This document shows, piece after piece, positions 10,677 to 34,761 of a DNA stretch of 39,110 nucleotides. The notes below the pieces were generated by a model that worked only from the letters and a program-made list of their open reading frames with translations, was not told where the DNA came from and did no database searches. The stretch comes from a virus. How positions within the stretch are numbered: the first letter of the stretch is position 1; every line of letters begins with the position of its first letter. Made by a program: the position numbers and the translations under genes. Where the stretch lies: the IMG/VR virus record IMGVR_UViG_3300020430_000001, positions 1 to 39,110 of that record. One strand, given 5' to 3'.

Positions 10677-10738
10677 CCGCTTTTGGACCCCGCTATTTAT
10701 GTCAATAAAAACAATCACTTATCACCTACGCAATTACG

Positions 10739-10754
10739 CATAATCTACATTATG
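10739..10754. promoter_or_regulatory. Second CATAAT/ATTATG inverted repeat
   Basis: CATAAT (10739-10744), spacer CTAC, ATTATG (10749-10754). The half-sites match those of the repeat at 10655-10676, so the pair may be binding sites of one protein controlling the late operon. This is inferred; no protein is assigned. Confidence 0.35.
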
Positions 10755-10821
10755 TTAAATCATGCCTGGTTTTCTCTCGCGTGCGTGCGCGAGGCTGTAC
10801 TTTGTAAACCCTAGCAAAAGA

Positions 10822-15559: not shown

Positions 15560-16299
15560 GTGCTCTCCCTAGTGTCTTGTAGTTGTATAGTAATTTGTTC
15601 AGGTTGCGCTGGTTTAGGCACAAACAAATCTGGCTCCCTGGTAGCCTGAAAAACACGCTCACAAGCTACGTCAAAAAATTCTTTGTCTATCTCTATCCCA
15701 GTGCCGTTTAGTCCAAGTCTTTCACAAGCAACTAGGGTAGTGCCTGAGCCCACGTAGGGATCGAGCACTGTTTTAGGGCTACGTGCTTTTTCAATAGCCC
15801 ACTGCATCACCTCAACTGGTTTTTGAGTAGGGTGCACCCGGGCTTCACGCTTACCTAATAGGCCGTTATATTCATATGTGAGAAGCTTAACGCTTTTCTT
15901 ATCTATGTTTGTCCAGGCAAGCTCACAATCACTGAAAGTCGGCATTGTATTTTTTTTATCCCAAACTAACCAATGCCCAGAAACAGGTAGCAGATCCGTA
16001 AAATAATTACCGCCAAAGATAATTGAATAAACAGCGCTGTTAAGCATGAGCTCAAAAGCTTTAGGGGTAGGGCGGTCATTATCCCAGCCGCCTTTATATT
16101 TACGCCTGGCAATGGGCTTACCACCCGACTTTTTACCTCCAAAGCCTGTTGGCTCCTTAAAACCTTTGTCTGTCATATTGAGGCCATAGGGTGGGTCAGT
16201 TACTAGTGCATCAAAAAGCTCCAGGTCAGACACAATGTCTAAACAGTTACCTAATATAATGCGCTGACCGCCTATATATTGCTCGTCAATAATGCTCAC
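15556..16299 (-). CDS. DNA N4-cytosine/N6-adenine methyltransferase, DPPY type (247 aa)
   Basis: Motif IV is TDPPYGLNM (~residues 33-41). Motif I follows later, LDPYVGSGTTLVACERLGLN, with GIEID. This order (IV before I) is that of the beta class, which includes CcrM-like enzymes of alphaproteobacteria. The specificity cannot be read from sequence. The C-terminus ends IQLQDTREST, and the last codons form one copy of the recurrent TACAAG-type motif just upstream of the exonuclease start. The enzyme likely protects phage DNA or modulates origin or host interactions; no restriction partner is present. Confidence 0.88.
   Translation of the reverse strand: MSIIDEQYIGGQRIILGNCLDIVSDLELFDALVTDPPYGLNMTDKGFKEPTGFGGKKSGGKPIARRKYKGGWDNDRPTPKAFELMLNSAVYSIIFGGNYFTDLLPVSGHWLVWDKKNTMPTFSDCELAWTNIDKKSVKLLTYEYNGLLGKREARVHPTQKPVEVMQWAIEKARSPKTVLDPYVGSGTTLVACERLGLNGTGIEIDKEFFDVACERVFQATREPDLFVPKPAQPEQITIQLQDTREST
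15569..15590 (-). promoter_or_regulatory. Recurrent motif copy before the exonuclease gene
   Basis: On the minus strand, CTATACAACTACAAGACACT (20 of 22 bases shown), ends about 10 bp upstream of the exonuclease start at 15559 and encodes IQLQDTR at the end of the methyltransferase. Confidence 0.5.
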
Positions 16300-16927: not shown

Positions 16928-17116
16928 TCATTTTTCTTTGTTAAATCTTTGCTCTAAAATAAATTCTAAATGACTTGATGTGCTTCGCTTATGAAGCCTG
17001 GCATCATTTTCCAACGCTATTTTTAGTTGTTTCGGTAGCCTTGTATAAAGAACGACTCGGTCCGATTCATCCTTTATCCAGTCGCTAAGCTCCTGATTTT
17101 CCTCAGTATAATACAT
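16928..17116 (-). CDS. Arc-like ribbon-helix-helix repressor (62 aa)
   Basis: Residues 20-58 (DRVVLYTRLPKQLKIALEND, then ARLHKRSTSSHLEFILEQRF) fit the Arc/MetJ ribbon-helix-helix fold: a beta strand, then two helices with the RSxSSHLE turn. Such dimers bind short operators with the beta ribbon. It is the first gene of the leftward operon and faces the divergent early control region, so it probably regulates that region and itself. Operator candidates are the 11-bp spaced AAACTGTA repeats and the TACAAG motifs. Confidence 0.8.
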   Translation of the reverse strand: MYYTEENQELSDWIKDESDRVVLYTRLPKQLKIALENDARLHKRSTSSHLEFILEQRFNKEK

Positions 17117-17141: not shown

Positions 17142-17163
17142 GATAGTCTTGTACTTGTATAAG
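17142..17163 (-). promoter_or_regulatory. Recurrent motif copy (leftward early)
   Basis: On the minus strand this reads TTATACAAGTACAAGACTAT, ending 26 bp upstream of the repressor start. It is one of seven or more copies in the genome that face into a downstream gene. Confidence 0.6.
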
Positions 17164-17226
17164 TGATATCAAATTGCTATCTAAATAGTAGGAAACTGTA
17201 AGAAAACTGTAGGCATACGGTAAAAC

Positions 17227-17245
17227 TATACAAGTACTAGATACT
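17227..17245 (+). promoter_or_regulatory. Recurrent motif copy (rightward early)
   Basis: TATACAAGTACTAGATACT lies 15 bp upstream of the 17261 start, followed by AAAAAGGATATTAAAATG with a usable ribosome site (AAGGA). Same sense as the gene. Confidence 0.6.
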
Positions 17246-17260
17246 AAAAAGGATATTAAA

Positions 17261-17932
17261 ATGGATAATGGTTGCAAAGTATTAATAGGGTGTGAGACCA
17301 GCGGAATAGTTAGAGAAGCTTTTACAGAATTAGGTTTTGATACCTGGTCATGTGATTTACTACCTTCAGACACTCCAACTAACCGTCACATTCAAGATGA
17401 TGTTAGAAATGTAATGGCTATGGATAGCTGGGATCTGGTATTTATTGGCCACCCGCCATGCACCAGGCTATGCAATAGCGGCGTGCGTTGGTTGCACAAA
17501 GCACCTCCTGGCCGCTCAATCAATGATATGTGGAATGAGTTAGATGAAGGAGCTGAATTGTTTAGCGACTTGTGGAATGCTGACGTGCCTTGCCTGGCAA
17601 TAGAAAACCCGGTCATGCATAAATACGCTAAAGAACGTATCCGTAACTATCAGCCATTTACTCAATCTGTTCAGCCGTGGGAGTTTGCTCATGATGATGA
17701 CGGGGCTGACAACGTTAAAAAAAGAACATGTTTCTGGCTTAAGAATTTACCAGCATTAGAAAAAACAGGGTCATTAGATGGGTCAACCGCTAGAGCTGAC
17801 GTCCACAATGCTACACCTGGACCAGACCGCTGGAAAATCAGATCAAAGTTTTATCCAGGCATTGCCCGTGCAATGGCTGAGCAATGGGGCAACGCGGCTC
17901 TTGCAGTACAAAACCAACAACTAGCCGCATAG
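17261..17932 (+). CDS. Cytosine-C5 DNA methyltransferase-like protein (223 aa)
   Basis: Motif I is LIGCETSGIVREAF (residues 8-21). Motif IV is FIGHPPCTRLCNSGVRWL with PPC at 65-67, the C5-methyltransferase catalytic Cys by analogy. Motif VI is IENP (114-117) where canonical enzymes have ENV. The C-terminus has the family signature ...RSKFYPGIARAMAEQWG. At ~220 aa this common phage family lacks a long target-recognition domain, so it may not be a standard C5 methyltransferase. It is the first rightward early gene and is followed by a GNAT protein. Confidence 0.82.
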   Translation: MDNGCKVLIGCETSGIVREAFTELGFDTWSCDLLPSDTPTNRHIQDDVRNVMAMDSWDLVFIGHPPCTRLCNSGVRWLHKAPPGRSINDMWNELDEGAELFSDLWNADVPCLAIENPVMHKYAKERIRNYQPFTQSVQPWEFAHDDDGADNVKKRTCFWLKNLPALEKTGSLDGSTARADVHNATPGPDRWKIRSKFYPGIARAMAEQWGNAALAVQNQQLAA

Positions 17933-17942
17933 GAGAATTACA

Positions 17943-18479
17943 ATGTTTCATCTTAATTGTAGTCTTGGGTATGCTCAGCGGTTTATTAAAAAACATCACC
18001 GCCATAGCAAGCCGCTCAAACGTCATATGTTTAGCATTGGCGTTTGTGAAACTGAGGATGTTTGGCAAGGCACGTTAGGGGTTGTTACGGTAGACCGCTG
18101 TAGTAGTGCCTGGTCAAAGCATAATGAAATGGTTGAGATCCGTAGATTATGTGTCATTGACGGTGCGCCTAAAAATACAGCCAGCTTTTTACTTAGCAAA
18201 GCTAGAGAAGCATGCTTTGCCATGGGCTACCTAATAGTCGTTACTTATACCAAACCTTATGAAAGCGGTGCATCACTCCGGGCGGCTGGCTTCCAGCTCA
18301 GCCGTGCCACTTGGGTTAGGAGCGAGCCGCATCACCCAAAAGGTTTAGTACGGTGGATATCTTATAGAGAACACCGACCAGATGTTGATGACATTGAGTT
18401 TACAAATGACACGCTCATGAGAATGAAAGATGAAATCAACAATCCACCAAATGTTTATGTTTTAAGAAGGGGGCAATGA
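17943..18479 (+). CDS. XF1762-type GNAT acetyltransferase-like protein (178 aa)
   Basis: The core EIRRLCVIDGAPKNTASFLL (residues ~66-85), then KAREACFAMGYLIVVTYTKP and ESGASLRAAGFQ, matches the XF1762 family of GNAT-fold proteins, found mostly in phages and mobile DNA. The substrate of this family is not known. It follows the C5-methyltransferase-like gene by 10 bp. The pairing with DNA-modifying enzymes invites the idea of base hypermodification (the Mu Mom protein is also GNAT-like), but this is inference. The C-terminal ~45 residues are not recognisable. Confidence 0.75.
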   Translation: MFHLNCSLGYAQRFIKKHHRHSKPLKRHMFSIGVCETEDVWQGTLGVVTVDRCSSAWSKHNEMVEIRRLCVIDGAPKNTASFLLSKAREACFAMGYLIVVTYTKPYESGASLRAAGFQLSRATWVRSEPHHPKGLVRWISYREHRPDVDDIEFTNDTLMRMKDEINNPPNVYVLRRGQ

Positions 18480-18480
18480 C

Positions 18481-18705
18481 TTGCAAATTTACATAAATAA
18501 ACAGGAAGCTGAAATGCTTTTGAAAGCCATTCATGAACTACAGCATGTAGTTGCTGAAATGGAGTTAGAAGAGGAAGGGTCGTCAGGTTATACACCTACT
18601 GACATGGTTGCTACCAATACCCTCAAATTGAAAATCAAAAACGAATTGAGAAAACAAAAATCGAAAGAATACGTTTTTAATAAAATTGGGAGACCTTTAA
18701 AATGA
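18481..18705 (+). CDS. Hypothetical helical protein (74 aa)
   Basis: The likely start is TTG at 18481, one base after the previous stop and behind GGGGG; an ATG at 18514 would shorten it. The protein (QIYINKQEAEMLLKAIHELQ, then VVAEMELEEEG) is helical and acidic at the centre, with a basic end. It resembles small phage proteins with NKxEAxxLLxAL patterns but no function is known. It overlaps the next gene by 4 bp. Confidence 0.5.
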   Translation: MQIYINKQEAEMLLKAIHELQHVVAEMELEEEGSSGYTPTDMVATNTLKLKIKNELRKQKSKEYVFNKIGRPLK

Positions 18706-18890
18706 ACATACAAGTACAAGATACTAGAGACCGTTTATTCTGGCGGTTGAAAGTAGATCAAATCACCAGGTCAATTTTGTCAGCCGAGTTCGACTATGCT
18801 GACATAAAAGATGAAGCGGCAAACACACCGCTTCCTGAGCTTATGAATGAGCTTAAAACTTTAGCAAAAAAAATAGAGGGAGTGAGATAA
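18702..18890 (+). CDS. Hypothetical protein (62 aa)
   Basis: MNIQVQDTRDRLFWRLKVDQ start; helical, no recognised family. Its first codons (IQVQDTR) are encoded by a copy of the recurrent TACAAGTACAAGATACTAG motif, so the peptide sequence there may simply reflect a DNA element. ATGA overlap with the previous gene. Confidence 0.5.
   Translation: MNIQVQDTRDRLFWRLKVDQITRSILSAEFDYADIKDEAANTPLPELMNELKTLAKKIEGVR
18709..18727 (+). promoter_or_regulatory. Recurrent motif copy inside the start of the 62-aa gene
   Basis: TACAAGTACAAGATACTAG, plus strand, at codons 3-9 of the gene starting at 18702. The same DNA element encodes IQLQDTR at the methyltransferase end (minus, 15569-15590) and LQVQDT in the scaffold gene. 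Confidence 0.55.
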
Positions 18891-18891
18891 G

Positions 18892-19701
18892 ATGTTTTTT
18901 TATAGACATCCAGATAACCGTGCTTATGCTGGTAAACTTAAAACTGCACAAAAGGGGAGACACTTGAAAGCTGGAGTATTTATATTTGGTGCCACTGAAG
19001 CCAGCCAACAAAAACAGCTAGAACAAATCAGGGCACTTTTTAAAAACGCTAAGACTAACGTCAAATATTTTAAGGAACCCCGGGGCCATCAAAAACGTGC
19101 ACCTGAGGACCGTGAAGTTTTACAGCAAGCGGCACGTTATTGTAGAACGGCTGACGCTACTTTTGTGATATCCTCATTGAAGGGCTTTTGTGAGACTAGG
19201 TGGCAAGCTCTTAGCTGGATGGTTAGCCAGGCAGAAATGCACAACATGCAATTTATGGTGGCAGACGACCCAGCAGTAAGTAGGGGCTCCGTGCATGTTA
19301 TGGCATTACAATCAGAAGAACGTAGGCATAAAATAGCCAAAAGTTCTAAAGAAGCTTTAGACAACATCAAAAAGCAATTAGCCGCTGGTAAACCTATTGT
19401 GGCTAAACGTACTGGCCGCCTGGTAACTAAACTAGGTGTTCATGATACTTTAACCGAAACTCAACAAACAGGTAATGAGGAGCAAGCTAGGCTAGCCAGG
19501 GAACGGGATAAAAAATATTTACCTGATATAGAGAAACTCCAGGCGCTTGGGATGGGTTACAATGCTATAGCCAGGCAGTTTAATGTCATGGCAATTCCAA
19601 CACCAGCACAAGAAAGAAAACAAAAAAGTGAGACCGCTGGTGAATGGTACGCAAGTACAGTTCGCAACATAGTTTTAAGAAATAAGGGAGAAAACAAATG
19701 A
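18892..19701 (+). CDS. Serine-recombinase-like protein, probably catalytically inactive (269 aa)
   Basis: The N-terminal region aligns to a resolvase domain: GVFIFGATEASQQKQLEQIR (residues ~28-47) is where active enzymes have YxRVST..Q, so the Arg and Ser appear to be replaced (FGAT). A loop with CETRWQALSW and MVADDP follows, then the long helix ERRHKIAKSSKEALDNIKKQ. The C-terminal recombinase/HTH region is recognisable: KLQALGMGYNAIARQFNVM, then EWYASTVRNIVLR. DNA binding is therefore likely, strand exchange unlikely. No att site was seen. The product could be a regulator or an old integrase. Confidence 0.72.
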   Translation: MFFYRHPDNRAYAGKLKTAQKGRHLKAGVFIFGATEASQQKQLEQIRALFKNAKTNVKYFKEPRGHQKRAPEDREVLQQAARYCRTADATFVISSLKGFCETRWQALSWMVSQAEMHNMQFMVADDPAVSRGSVHVMALQSEERRHKIAKSSKEALDNIKKQLAAGKPIVAKRTGRLVTKLGVHDTLTETQQTGNEEQARLARERDKKYLPDIEKLQALGMGYNAIARQFNVMAIPTPAQERKQKSETAGEWYASTVRNIVLRNKGENK

Positions 19702-20204
19702 TCAGTGAAAATATTGTTAAGTTAGAACAGGACGACCACTTAGTTTACTTAAAGGGTGCATTAGATTTTGCACTACGTGAATATGCAAAGAAAAATCTCG
19801 ACCTCGAAATTTCAATAACTGAGGGGGGTAGGGTTGCTCCTACGGGTGAGGAACGGCGCATAAAAGAATGGTCACTCGAATCGTCAAATCAAAGACGTTT
19901 TTTAATGTATGTCATAAGAAGTACTTTAGAGGACTGTAATATTACTACCGCCGAGATTGTAAAGAAACTTCGCACTAGTCGTCCAACTGTTATTAAGATG
20001 ATGAATTTTTGTCTTGAGCGAAAATGGATAGAAAATGAAAAATGTTCCAAAGGTCATAATCATCTGACTGCAACGCCAATAATGATAGAATGCTACCAAA
20101 ATTACGTTAATTGGCTTTGGAATGTTGTTGATGATTTGCAAATTCGTGATCTATCAACACAAATAAAAGAGCTCAAAAAACAAATAAACAGTTCAAACGA
20201 ATAG
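19698..20204 (+). CDS. MarR-like winged-helix regulator (168 aa)
   Basis: Residues ~70-120 form a winged helix: LMYVIRSTLEDCNITTAEIV, then KKLRTSRPTVIKMMNFCLERKW (recognition helix RTSRPTVIKMM) and NHLTATPIMIECYQNYV. The C-terminal helix LSTQIKELKKQINSSNE may dimerise. It is preceded by ATGA overlap with the recombinase-like gene. Palindromic operator-like repeats sit immediately downstream at 20226-20265, so it may control the next gene or itself. Confidence 0.68.
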   Translation: MISENIVKLEQDDHLVYLKGALDFALREYAKKNLDLEISITEGGRVAPTGEERRIKEWSLESSNQRRFLMYVIRSTLEDCNITTAEIVKKLRTSRPTVIKMMNFCLERKWIENEKCSKGHNHLTATPIMIECYQNYVNWLWNVVDDLQIRDLSTQIKELKKQINSSNE

Positions 20205-20300: not shown

Positions 20301-20666
20301 ATGAGAAAAACTATGAGAAAACACCGTAGGCAATCAGAAACGGTTATGAGGCTAGGGGCTGGTCAAATGCGCTTTAAACGGCGCATGGACCTTCCTTTGT
20401 GGCACCAAGATCATTTGCTAAAAGTTGCTCGTATACTTCAAGACGCTGGAAAGCGCATAGAAAAAATCTCTAACAGCAATTCATTAAGAAATGTTGACAA
20501 AGCGTTAGCCGCCCAAACAATAATAACTTTAGCTAATATAGACGCTGGGCGTATAACACCTTTAGACCCACGGGAACGCGGGTCTGAGAAACTTGAATGG
20601 CGTGAAACTGGACTTGTTAACACAAGTGGCTTTGACGAGCTTAATGCCAGACAGGATTTAGACTAA
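20301..20666 (+). CDS. Hypothetical basic protein (121 aa)
   Basis: The N-terminus is very basic (MRKTMRKHRRQSETVMRLGA). A helical middle (LLKVARILQDAGKRIEKISN; KALAAQTIITLANIDAGRIT) follows. No family was recognised. Start at 20301 is preceded by AGGGGT very close to the ATG; an ATG at 20313 is an alternative. It lies downstream of the palindromic repeats, so it may have its own control. Confidence 0.5.
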   Translation: MRKTMRKHRRQSETVMRLGAGQMRFKRRMDLPLWHQDHLLKVARILQDAGKRIEKISNSNSLRNVDKALAAQTIITLANIDAGRITPLDPRERGSEKLEWRETGLVNTSGFDELNARQDLD

Positions 20667-20697
20667 GTATCTAGTACCTATAAAAAGGTATCTAGTA
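20667..20697. promoter_or_regulatory. GTATCTAGTA direct repeats, variant of the recurrent motif
   Basis: GTATCTAGTA occurs at 20667-20676 and 20688-20697, 21 bp apart. Its complement TACTAGATAC is the 3' half of the motif at 17231-17244. Unlike the other copies it faces away from the downstream gene (20727). It fills the 60-bp gap between two plus-strand genes. Confidence 0.4.
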
Positions 20698-20726
20698 ATT
20701 ATAAACAACAGGCAGAGGGCTTGATT

Positions 20727-20942
20727 ATGAATAAACAATTACTTAGGGGGTTCTCTATAAACCCTATTCGCATAATATATATTATCCCAGAATTAACTAT
20801 TGCTTCAGTAAATCAGGTTAGACAGTACAGCCAGGGCAGTGCGTTCAGAACATTCTGTTCTGTAATTGGGGATATCTTAGGGGCAATAAGTATTTTTCTC
20901 TTAGGATACATTTGGTTACTAACAGCGGCCTTTTTCTCATGA
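20727..20942 (+). CDS. Small membrane protein (71 aa)
   Basis: The ATG at 20727 is preceded by AGAGGG; a TTG at 20721 would add two residues. The C-terminal half is a hydrophobic segment (DILGAISIFLLGYIWLLTAA) predicted to cross the membrane; the N-terminal half is amphipathic (INPIRIIYIIPELTIASVNQ). The TGA overlaps the next ATG. Host-takeover or superinfection-type roles are possible for early small membrane proteins, but nothing in the sequence decides. Confidence 0.55.
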   Translation: MNKQLLRGFSINPIRIIYIIPELTIASVNQVRQYSQGSAFRTFCSVIGDILGAISIFLLGYIWLLTAAFFS

Positions 20943-24765: not shown

Positions 24766-24782
24766 ATAATATCTAGTAGTTG
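24766..24782 (-). promoter_or_regulatory. Recurrent motif copy after the capsid gene
   Basis: On the minus strand, CAACTACTAGATATTAT ends 11 bp upstream of the 92-aa gene start. It matches the 17231-17247 copy at most positions. Confidence 0.45.
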
Positions 24783-24786
24783 AATA

Positions 24787-24804
24787 GGGGCGGTCTCCCG
24801 CCCC
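24787..24804 (-). other. GNRA-loop hairpin between the capsid gene and its neighbour
   Basis: On the minus strand GGGGCGG, loop GAGA, CCGCCCC: a 7-bp GC-rich stem with a GNRA tetraloop, 9 bp after the capsid stop (24813). No U-run follows, so it looks more like an mRNA-stabilising or attenuating hairpin than a full terminator. It could raise capsid yield relative to downstream genes. Confidence 0.6.
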
Positions 24805-25798: not shown

Positions 25799-26803
25799 CT
25801 AACTATTCAAGATTAAGGCAACGGCATCCTCAGCCTTGCCTGATTTTTTCAAGCGCTGTAGCGCCTGTTCATTAGCTTTAGCTTTTATAGAGCCAGGCCG
25901 TTTTTTGGCCCCCGCTTTTACTGAAGGGGTAGTTGTTTTACCCGCTTTAGTGTTTGCAGTTTTGCGCTTTTTAACCAATGCTTGATATTTCATGGCGTCA
26001 TTAAGAGTGAGCACATATCTGTGGTCTCTCACCATACTTAATTCTTCAGCCGTAAAACCATAATGTTCACCAGATTTTAATAACTTCTTTTTGTAAGCTT
26101 CACCCTTTTCTGGGTTAGCTAACTCCGGGAGCTTTTCTAGTAATATTTTGGTTTGAGCATCAGTATATTCTGAAAGTTGTTTGTTTGCCTCGTCTTGGCG
26201 TTCAGTGTGCAACTTTTGTAACTTATTGATGTTTTCATTGTACTCACCAACTTGCTTATCATAAACCATTTTAGCCCTCATGTATGCCATGGGGTCATTT
26301 TCAAACAGTTCTTCTGAAGGGGGTGTTGGTGCAACGATAGGCGCTTCTTGCATTTTATTAGCAAACTCTAGTAATTGCTGTCGCTTATCAGAAAGCTCAG
26401 ACTGGGCATCCTTGAGGTCTTTTTCAAGTTTTGCTACGTCTTGCATTCTTTGTTGAATATAGCTTTGTCCAGAATATCCCCGGGTTAACTCATCTAAGGT
26501 TACTTCCTTTGTAACACCGTCAACCTTGACGGTATAAAGTTGTTCTTCCTGAGTTTCGGTTTCTTCCTCAATAGCCTCATCAGTATCAGCCTCAAATTCT
26601 TCGTCAAAAAGGTCATCATCAGCCTCAGCCTCCAGCTCAGCCTCATCAGTTTCAACGGTCTCAACCTGAGGTTCCGTTTCTTCTGGTTCAACTTCAGCCT
26701 TTTGGACTTCTTTATTTTCTCCCTCAGCGGGAGTATCTTGTACTTGTAAGATTGAAGCAACCGCTTCATCCTCACTTATTGATTGCATAGTCGCGTCATT
26801 CAC
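25799..26803 (-). CDS. Scaffolding protein (334 aa)
   Basis: The N-terminal ~90 residues are very acidic (EVEPEETEPQVETVETDEAE; DDDLFDEEFEADTDEAIEEE). A beta/linker part (YTVKVDGVTKEVTLDELTRG) and a long coiled coil (DVAKLEKDLKDAQSELSDKR; NENINKLQKLHTERQDEANK-like) follow. The end is basic (KTTTPSVKAGAKKRPGSIKA), as expected for the capsid-binding end of scaffolds. Gene position between portal side and capsid supports it. A recurrent motif copy with a hairpin lies inside codons 18-26. Confidence 0.78.
   Translation of the reverse strand: MNDATMQSISEDEAVASILQVQDTPAEGENKEVQKAEVEPEETEPQVETVETDEAELEAEADDDLFDEEFEADTDEAIEEETETQEEQLYTVKVDGVTKEVTLDELTRGYSGQSYIQQRMQDVAKLEKDLKDAQSELSDKRQQLLEFANKMQEAPIVAPTPPSEELFENDPMAYMRAKMVYDKQVGEYNENINKLQKLHTERQDEANKQLSEYTDAQTKILLEKLPELANPEKGEAYKKKLLKSGEHYGFTAEELSMVRDHRYVLTLNDAMKYQALVKKRKTANTKAGKTTTPSVKAGAKKRPGSIKAKANEQALQRLKKSGKAEDAVALILNS
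26734..26748 (-). promoter_or_regulatory. Recurrent motif copy inside the scaffold gene
   Basis: Minus strand TACAAGTACAAGATA, codons of LQVQDT, immediately followed by a CTCCC/GGGAG hairpin (26719-26733). Unlike the others it lies 55 bp inside the gene rather than before it. Confidence 0.45.
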
Positions 26804-33594: not shown

Positions 33595-34761
33595 TTATAC
33601 CTCCTTTATTGTACGAGATAAATGTATCTTGTACTTGTATAAATTTCCACATAAGCGACTGAACGGTTCGCCTACAAGCTTAATCATTTTACCAACATAG
33701 TTAGGCTTATATTCTTTTGGCTTCATGCAATGCGCCATTTCTTCAGCCCAGGCTTTTACAATAGGCCACATTAACAATCTAACAATTCTAGCAAAAAATG
33801 TATTTTTCTGAATGTAATTAGCCGTTGGAATTCCCCACAAGTGATAACCTTTAATAAGGGTAGGGTCCTCTCTTAAAACCTTTACGCCATAGCGACGATC
33901 AAGTTGCCAAATTTCTTTTGGTAAATATCCCATTTTACAATAAGCTGAGCACATAACGGTGCCGTCACCACTTGCAACACTTTTAACATCATCAACAACC
34001 TTATCTTTCATATTAGATACGTCTTTTCTGATTTGACCAAAATGTTCACCAACAGACATATCAAAAGGGTTTTCATCCCTCATTCTAAAACCACGTTCTG
34101 CCGCTTCTCTAGGAGACATTTGACCCGGTTTATTTCCAACAGCATAAATTCCACCGTCAGGCGTTTGGGCAAAGCCTATTGCACCAGCTTCATTACCAGC
34201 CGCGAAATTTTTCTTTTGGCGTTCCATATGTTGAGCCATAAAGTCAGCTCTTTCTTGACCAACTCCACCGCTATTACTGCCGCCAACTCCAGCTCCAGCT
34301 CCACCGCCAGAGCCCTCTAAACCATCACTAACCAAAGGCATATAACCTATGTTAGAGACATTACCAGCGTTTACGCCAGTAGTTCCAGTAAATGGATTAA
34401 TAAAAAAGCTATCAATGTAAGACGCCTGGGCTGGTCGATCAGCTCTAAATTCATCCATTGTAGCATCAAATATAGGTTTAGCTGAATAACCCAAAACACC
34501 ACCGCCATAATCAGTTGGGGCATCCATACCGCCAAAAACGTCATTTCCAGTAGGAGCTGATAATCCAAACGCATTAGCTGTATTTGCTGTATTCAAAAAG
34601 CTACTATTTTGCATTGGAGTAAAAGCGGCAACGGTAGGGCCATAGCTCAGTGGTACTGGACCCATACGGCTTACCCGGTCAGCTTGATTAAGATTTCTTT
34701 GTGCCGCATCCTCTAACCATCTTGGTATGGTAGTATCTACAGACTTGCCACCTTTGCCCAT
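33595..34761 (-). CDS. Internal virion protein with conserved C-terminal domain (388 aa)
   Basis: The N-terminal half is low complexity and Gly-rich (GGGAGAGVGGSNSGGVGQER). The C-terminal ~110 residues are a distinct domain: VMCSAYCKMGYLPKEIWQLD, GYHLWGIPTANYIQKNTFF and IVKAWAEEMAHCM, seen at the end of other phage internal proteins. Two Cys pairs occur there. The function is unknown. It lies 1 bp from the next gene. Confidence 0.62.
   Translation of the reverse strand: MGKGGKSVDTTIPRWLEDAAQRNLNQADRVSRMGPVPLSYGPTVAAFTPMQNSSFLNTANTANAFGLSAPTGNDVFGGMDAPTDYGGGVLGYSAKPIFDATMDEFRADRPAQASYIDSFFINPFTGTTGVNAGNVSNIGYMPLVSDGLEGSGGGAGAGVGGSNSGGVGQERADFMAQHMERQKKNFAAGNEAGAIGFAQTPDGGIYAVGNKPGQMSPREAAERGFRMRDENPFDMSVGEHFGQIRKDVSNMKDKVVDDVKSVASGDGTVMCSAYCKMGYLPKEIWQLDRRYGVKVLREDPTLIKGYHLWGIPTANYIQKNTFFARIVRLLMWPIVKAWAEEMAHCMKPKEYKPNYVGKMIKLVGEPFSRLCGNLYKYKIHLSRTIKEV
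33623..33640 (-). promoter_or_regulatory. Recurrent motif copy before the 251-aa virion gene
   Basis: On the minus strand, ATACAAGTACAAGATACA, 30 bp upstream of the start at 33593 and inside the last codons (YKYKIH) of the previous gene, followed by an AAAGGAGG ribosome site. Confidence 0.55.

Follow-up and report, generated by a model that had tools for sequence, protein, structure and literature searches.

A 17-letter element that recurs in nine copies across a phage genome is the probable, conserved docking site of a small Arc-like repressor, and through it one small protein apparently controls early and late genes at once. The window (the whole 39,110-nucleotide stretch of DNA analyzed here) comes from one virus record whose ends repeat over 77 bp, which makes it a 39,033-bp circle, and the wiring of the element is conserved across dozens of related uncultured phages. 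By examining the copies of the element, their placement relative to genes, and the regulator that accompanies them among relatives, we hypothesize with moderate confidence that the element serves as operator for an autoregulated ribbon-helix-helix (RHH) repressor encoded by the phage itself, whose sites would form a network across the genome at which transcription is blocked.

Refined with relatives, the 17-bp consensus is TACAASYACHAGAYACT, with weaker flanks (YTW on the 5' side and A on the 3' side). It contains three direct TAC units at a spacing of 6-7 bp (TACAAS-TACHAG-A-YACT), its core AGTACHAGATACT is quasi-palindromic, and TACAAGTACAAG is one of the window's commonest 12-mers. Enrichment over shuffled sequence, on which an earlier note on this DNA had staked its reading, is present: the 19-mer TACAAGTACAAGATACTAG (up to three mismatches) has 5 matches in the window and 0 in 100 dinucleotide shuffles, a degenerate 17-mer (up to three mismatches) has 10 matches against 1.5 expected, and a scoring profile trained on other phages only, with the window genome left out, finds the nine sites given below. 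Eight of the nine score 18-31 bits, above every shuffle (the best of 15 shuffled genomes reached 14.6), and after the ninth the profile drops to background, the next match scoring 8.1 bits; the copy at 20687 is marginal by itself, because its 14.1 bits must be set against that best shuffled score. All copies listed in the earlier note were recovered, each at its position and on its strand. The sites and the features next to them are as follows.

15571-15587, minus strand: element at the end of the DNA methylase gene, 28.6 bits, 11 bp before the PDDEXK (DUF3799) gene
16928-17116, minus strand: gene of the 62-aa Arc-like RHH protein, the proposed reader of the element
17143-17159, minus strand: element before the RHH gene, 20.3 bits, 26 bp to the ATG, a candidate autoregulatory site
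17165-17181, no strand assigned: imperfect inverted repeat GATAGCAATTTGATATC (read on the minus strand), 4-5 bp upstream of the 17143 element
17229-17245, plus strand: element before the divergent rightward operon, 31.3 bits, 15 bp to the ATG at 17261
18709-18725, plus strand: element over codons 3-8 of a 62-aa gene (18702-18890), 25.5 bits
20666-20682, minus strand: antisense tandem pair, copy 1, 18.2 bits, directly 3' of the stop of gene 20301-20666 (plus strand)
20687-20703, minus strand: antisense tandem pair, copy 2, weaker, 14.1 bits, 0.07 expected
24768-24784, minus strand: element between the capsid-gene hairpin and the next gene, 21.0 bits, 12 bp to the ATG (24755)
24787-24804, no strand assigned: GC-rich hairpin that follows the major capsid gene, immediately 5' of the 24768 element
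26732-26748, minus strand: element within the scaffold gene, 25.0 bits, 55 nt past the gene start
33623-33639, minus strand: element at the 3' end of gene 33595-34761, 24.6 bits, 29 bp to the next ATG (33593)

The five copies said to lie 10-30 bp before a start codon do so, at 11, 26, 15, 12 and 29 bp. The IQVQDTR-like peptides attributed to copies in coding sequence are found for several copies, all in one frame; the 33623 copy encodes YKYKIH in another frame, and those at 17143, 17229 and 20666 are noncoding. Since the peptide varies, one copy uses another frame and some copies are noncoding, selection acts on the nucleic acid. Peptide selection was considered and rejected, the element being found in two reading frames and in noncoding DNA, and a synonymous-codon test was uninformative because the codons of the element are common in these AT-rich genomes.

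By our own count over the relatives, 15 of 16 position classes are in the sense direction (two-sided sign test, about 0.0005). The earlier note had taken every copy but its last as sense: this holds for most, but the copy at 33623 runs in the sense direction of two genes, the one at whose end it lies and the one that follows, and only those at 20666 and 20687 are antisense. These two form the sole antisense class, a pair right behind the stop codon of an early gene and 21 bp apart, or about two helical turns. An antisense copy or pair is kept behind the same gene's stop in ten records, and L267 and L272, too, have a second copy at 21 bp; it is chiefly this conserved spacing that supports the weak 20687 copy. 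Copies of the scaffold class begin to be found 43-55 nt into the gene, a position shared by 15 relatives, and some genomes (G026, G039, G053, G062 and G063) have two of them 30 bp apart. The post-capsid class sits 11-14 nt before the following gene in most records, directly behind a GC hairpin whose position is kept in relatives while its sequence varies; the site is in the same place in G001, G002, G004, G005, G007, G026, G039, G045, G053, G062 and G063. The terminase class is upstream of its gene and behind a stop codon, in some genomes directly before a terminator-like hairpin, and further classes flank the divergent early promoter on both sides or precede several early genes, with three such sites in G040. 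In many cases a Shine-Dalgarno sequence follows 1-4 nt after the end of the copy.

A strong RNA hairpin was also observed at 26746-26775 (minus strand), just upstream of and touching the scaffold-gene element (z of -4.4 for the wider region and -4.9 for the upstream stretch); G006 also has a hairpin at this place, though its sequence differs.

The positional conservation that the earlier note had put forward as a test is found in related phages, although shared ancestry means that the positions kept cannot be counted as independent. At 85% portal identity, relatives carry eight sites (G002) or seven (G001, a shorter record), nearly all at the positions of the window; the 15571 and 18709 sites are syntenic in both, and the equivalent of the 17229 plus-strand site in G002 is 5366 on the plus strand. 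At 65-69% portal identity (G+C 54-56%) several classes persist, with the element at the scaffold start, after the capsid gene and before the terminase gene, and at about 60% it is mostly absent. When IMG/VR was scanned for the near-exact consensus, 112 stretches matched; among the 80 of these that were listed, about half clearly come from this group of phages, as their context shows, and the others are apparently chance matches. Matches in coding sequence at G004 2265 (plus) and G006 11994 (minus) are probably chance, and that at G045 12254 (plus) is doubtful. The best isolated phage, Octadecabacter Antarctic DB virus 2, has 43% portal identity, a single match with three mismatches, and no RHH protein seen among the regulators read. 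In bacterial genomes a related portal was found on two short MAG contigs only, and hence there is neither a prophage nor a firm host.

Loci of the proposed reader, the RHH protein, were fetched by protein search, not by motif, and in 24 of 24 the element is the best match of the upstream region, in sense orientation and 26-41 bp before the gene, although these are not 24 independent events because the lineages overlap. In these loci the element is preceded by an inverted repeat of the GATAGCAATNTGCTATC kind, the form that the repeat at 17165-17181 takes in many relatives, and this repeat is a probable second operator or promoter element. In every genome that includes the divergent early region, a small RHH protein is encoded behind the element. 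Many element-bearing contigs are fragments too incomplete to show whether the RHH gene is present. Near-complete genomes with the gene (G000, G002 and G053) carry element networks, and the long relatives that lack the protein (G011, G014-G024) show at most one match, with two mismatches. The M[KR]HIIDYDH gene keeps an upstream site both where it is next to the RHH gene (L259) and where the two are separated by about 1 kb (G047 7209). In G053 a more distant RHH protein goes with a weaker upstream site, and G009 has a still more distant homologue (E 6e-11), with TACAACACCCAAACCTAA before its RHH gene and TACAAGACCCAGACATTA in its scaffold gene. The shared, altered core TACAASACCCARAC occurs at just two positions in the 39.5 kb of G009, upstream of the RHH gene and at the scaffold start, and we read this as site and reader diverging together. 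Together with the constant RHH neighbor at the early promoter, such co-divergence is most simply read as autoregulation. Among the three options of the earlier note, the Arc operator is supported (24 of 24 loci, co-occurrence, and co-divergence in G009), and the promoter and RNA options came out weaker, the RNA option keeping some probability because of the sense orientation and the many sites that abut a Shine-Dalgarno sequence.

Proteins behind the element are 62 aa long in the window and 50-63 aa in relatives, with a conserved beta-strand, V-x-L-[FY]-x-R. The RHH architecture (a beta-strand and two helices in about 45-60 aa) appears to be present, but the assignment of the window protein itself is weak by sequence and by fold search: its Pfam Arc match is below cut-off (E 0.023), while its relatives match HicB (above cut-off), Arc and RHH_5; a profile match to AmrZ has E 0.11; and its AlphaFold model superposes locally (30-37 residues, 0.5-0.9 A) on AmrZ, Arc, CopG and VapB12, although E>1 for these matches. 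The single-chain model is of moderate confidence (pLDDT 71), and the beta-strand is not formed in it.

RHH regulators usually control their own genes, and their dimers insert a beta-sheet into the major groove of the operator. For the phage repressor we infer binding, the number of dimers and the blocking mechanism as follows. The three TAC units would be occupied by stacked RHH dimers. Through the site ahead of its own gene the repressor would close an autoregulatory loop; a second site would control the divergent early operon, and the others would act in the leader or at the beginning of the reading frame of replication and capsid genes. Bound repressor would then stop RNA polymerase at promoter exit or during elongation, in the manner of a stoperator. 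Because the Shine-Dalgarno sequence trails the element by few bases, the transcript in many classes must begin no later than the element itself. This makes it unlikely that an activator binds there; the element either overlaps the start point or, being transcribed, works as a block. A block of RNA polymerase is the most likely action, since most sites are in transcribed DNA, just 5' of the ribosome site and aligned with transcription. Besides the weak RHH assignment and the fragmentary, related genomes, it counts against the RHH-operator reading that the quasi-palindromic core would not by itself give a reason for single orientation and that no integrase was seen in the window, so that silencing of late genes has no obvious need.

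The alternative that survives best, although we consider it unlikely, is an mRNA element near the ribosome-binding site, read by a protein or RNA to tune translation in the way of Start-Associated Sequences. Nearly all classes are sense, and many copies come just before the Shine-Dalgarno sequence, as it would predict; however, the scaffold class lies well inside its gene, another class follows a stop codon at a distance of 37-87 nt upstream of its gene, and the tandem pair has been conserved despite being antisense. Nor do the surroundings of the elements share a fold: hairpins lie upstream of some classes (the scaffold hairpin, the capsid-gene hairpin and the repressor palindrome) and not others, so there is no common RNA structure, and neither known RNA families nor tRNAs were found in the window.

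Rather unlikely, too, is a phage-specific promoter that would serve some RNA polymerase or sigma factor and yield short leaders. Sense copies 11-29 bp before start codons suit it, as do the placement behind the capsid-gene hairpin, as in T7, and the superficial likeness, in our own comparison, of GACACTAGGGAGA at 15571 to T7/SP6 promoters. Yet no phage RNA polymerase, T7-like single-subunit enzymes included, was seen among the proteins of the window, the large ones matching structural, lysis, packaging or primase families or nothing. Around the aligned elements there is no conserved start base after the element, no upstream box, and no conserved -35 or -10 at fixed spacing (in agreement with the earlier note, which had seen no classical pairs), and sigma-70 promoter-like matches at the sites are no more than in shuffles. 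In addition, a terminator hairpin follows one class at once, and the conserved antisense pair fits a promoter poorly.

We give little credence to the idea that the element is an operator for some other DNA-binding protein of the phage, such as the winged-helix-like 168-aa protein at 19698-20204, and that the RHH gene is a mere target. In both cases the RHH gene would be found linked to the site of its regulator, and the rightward operon encodes further putative DNA-binding proteins; the co-divergence in G009 and the constant RHH neighbor at the early promoter speak against it. A trans-acting small RNA from the region of the antisense pair, pairing with all sense copies, is highly improbable: no other class is antisense, and the pair has been conserved, but it fits the element less well than other copies do (2 and 3 mismatches) and sits in a short gap between two genes. 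A coding constraint (IQVQDT-like peptide), chance or base composition, suggested by the frame and peptide common to several copies, can be practically dismissed in the face of noncoding and other-frame copies, shuffle tests and syntenic conservation.

P22 Arc acts at one promoter region. The RHH protein proposed here is like it in its Arc-like fold and likely autoregulation, and unlike it in having nine putative sites genome-wide and a different operator. The arrangement is closer in form to the stoperators of cluster A mycobacteriophages (L5, Bxb1, TipsytheTRex), which are short, asymmetric, scattered and transcription-oriented, with one at the repressor gene, and the window shares this trait of many asymmetric, oriented sites. 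Such L5-type sites can stop elongation when oriented with transcription, and motif and repressor co-diverge among these phages (PMC9283540; PMC6550527). We say that the element works like a stoperator, not that it is one, because the candidate found in the window is a small, Arc-like RHH protein and not the L5-type repressor, a two-domain monomeric HTH protein; moreover, there are more than twenty sites in those phages and about nine here, and lysogeny is part of the comparison there only. The closest RHH precedent is AvtR of AFV6, which is autoregulated and has eight potential genome sites conserved in its genus; SvtR of SIRV1, also RHH, targets its own promoter and a structural gene (PMC5569661). 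Both are likewise small viral RHH proteins with several genome sites, but they belong to archaeal viruses and have putative imperfect inverted repeats near promoters, in contrast to sense triple repeats in leaders and genes. The omega/ParB protein of pSM19035, an RHH protein, binds contiguous 7-bp repeats, direct or inverted (PMC9499535); the TAC units 6-7 bp apart would similarly fit stacked dimers, although omega/ParB serves plasmid partition and regulation on longer contiguous arrays. Cluster K Start-Associated Sequences are also asymmetric short repeats upstream of start codons and mostly in one orientation, but they contain the Shine-Dalgarno core and are limited to non-structural genes (PMC3203893), whereas our element lies outside that core and occurs also in genes, before terminators and in antisense.

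If the operator reading is true, a single 62-residue protein runs the entire program of widespread uncultured podovirus-like phages, and an orientation-linked, genome-wide transcription block has arisen a second time, with a DNA-binding fold unrelated to that of the mycobacteriophages. The element is also a search handle, which links the contigs of these phages and predicts their regulator and its targets from sequence alone.

Several further features of the window were observed. At 10733-10760 (plus strand), ATTACGCATAATCTACATTATGTTAAAT fits the proteobacterial dif-type (XerC/XerD) consensus, a site described in PMC2731167, at 23 of 24 scored positions; similar sites occur at G001 4933, G047 714, G053 5532, G060 673 and G015 16257, and the phage may use host XerC/XerD. 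A second dif-like palindrome, TATTCGCATAATATATATTATCCCAGAA (20765-20792, plus strand), lies about 60 bp past the antisense pair and is kept near the pair in G001, G053, G045, L267, L270 and L278; its XerC-type arm stays constant, and the other arm varies. It is a long shot that these are tailed phages with host-type dif sites and stoperator-type silencing by a minimal RHH repressor; with no integrase of their own, they may rely on host XerC/XerD to persist, and the antisense pair, close to the second dif-like site, would keep transcription that enters at the junction out of the phage genome. The 269-aa protein encoded at 18892-19701 (plus strand) has weak resolvase/recombinase matches, and the usual catalytic serine motif is not recognizable by eye; it may be an inactive recombinase serving as a DNA-binding protein. 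Finally, a match to Mom-like proteins at 17943-18479 (plus strand) falls just under the curated cut-off (E 6.8e-5).
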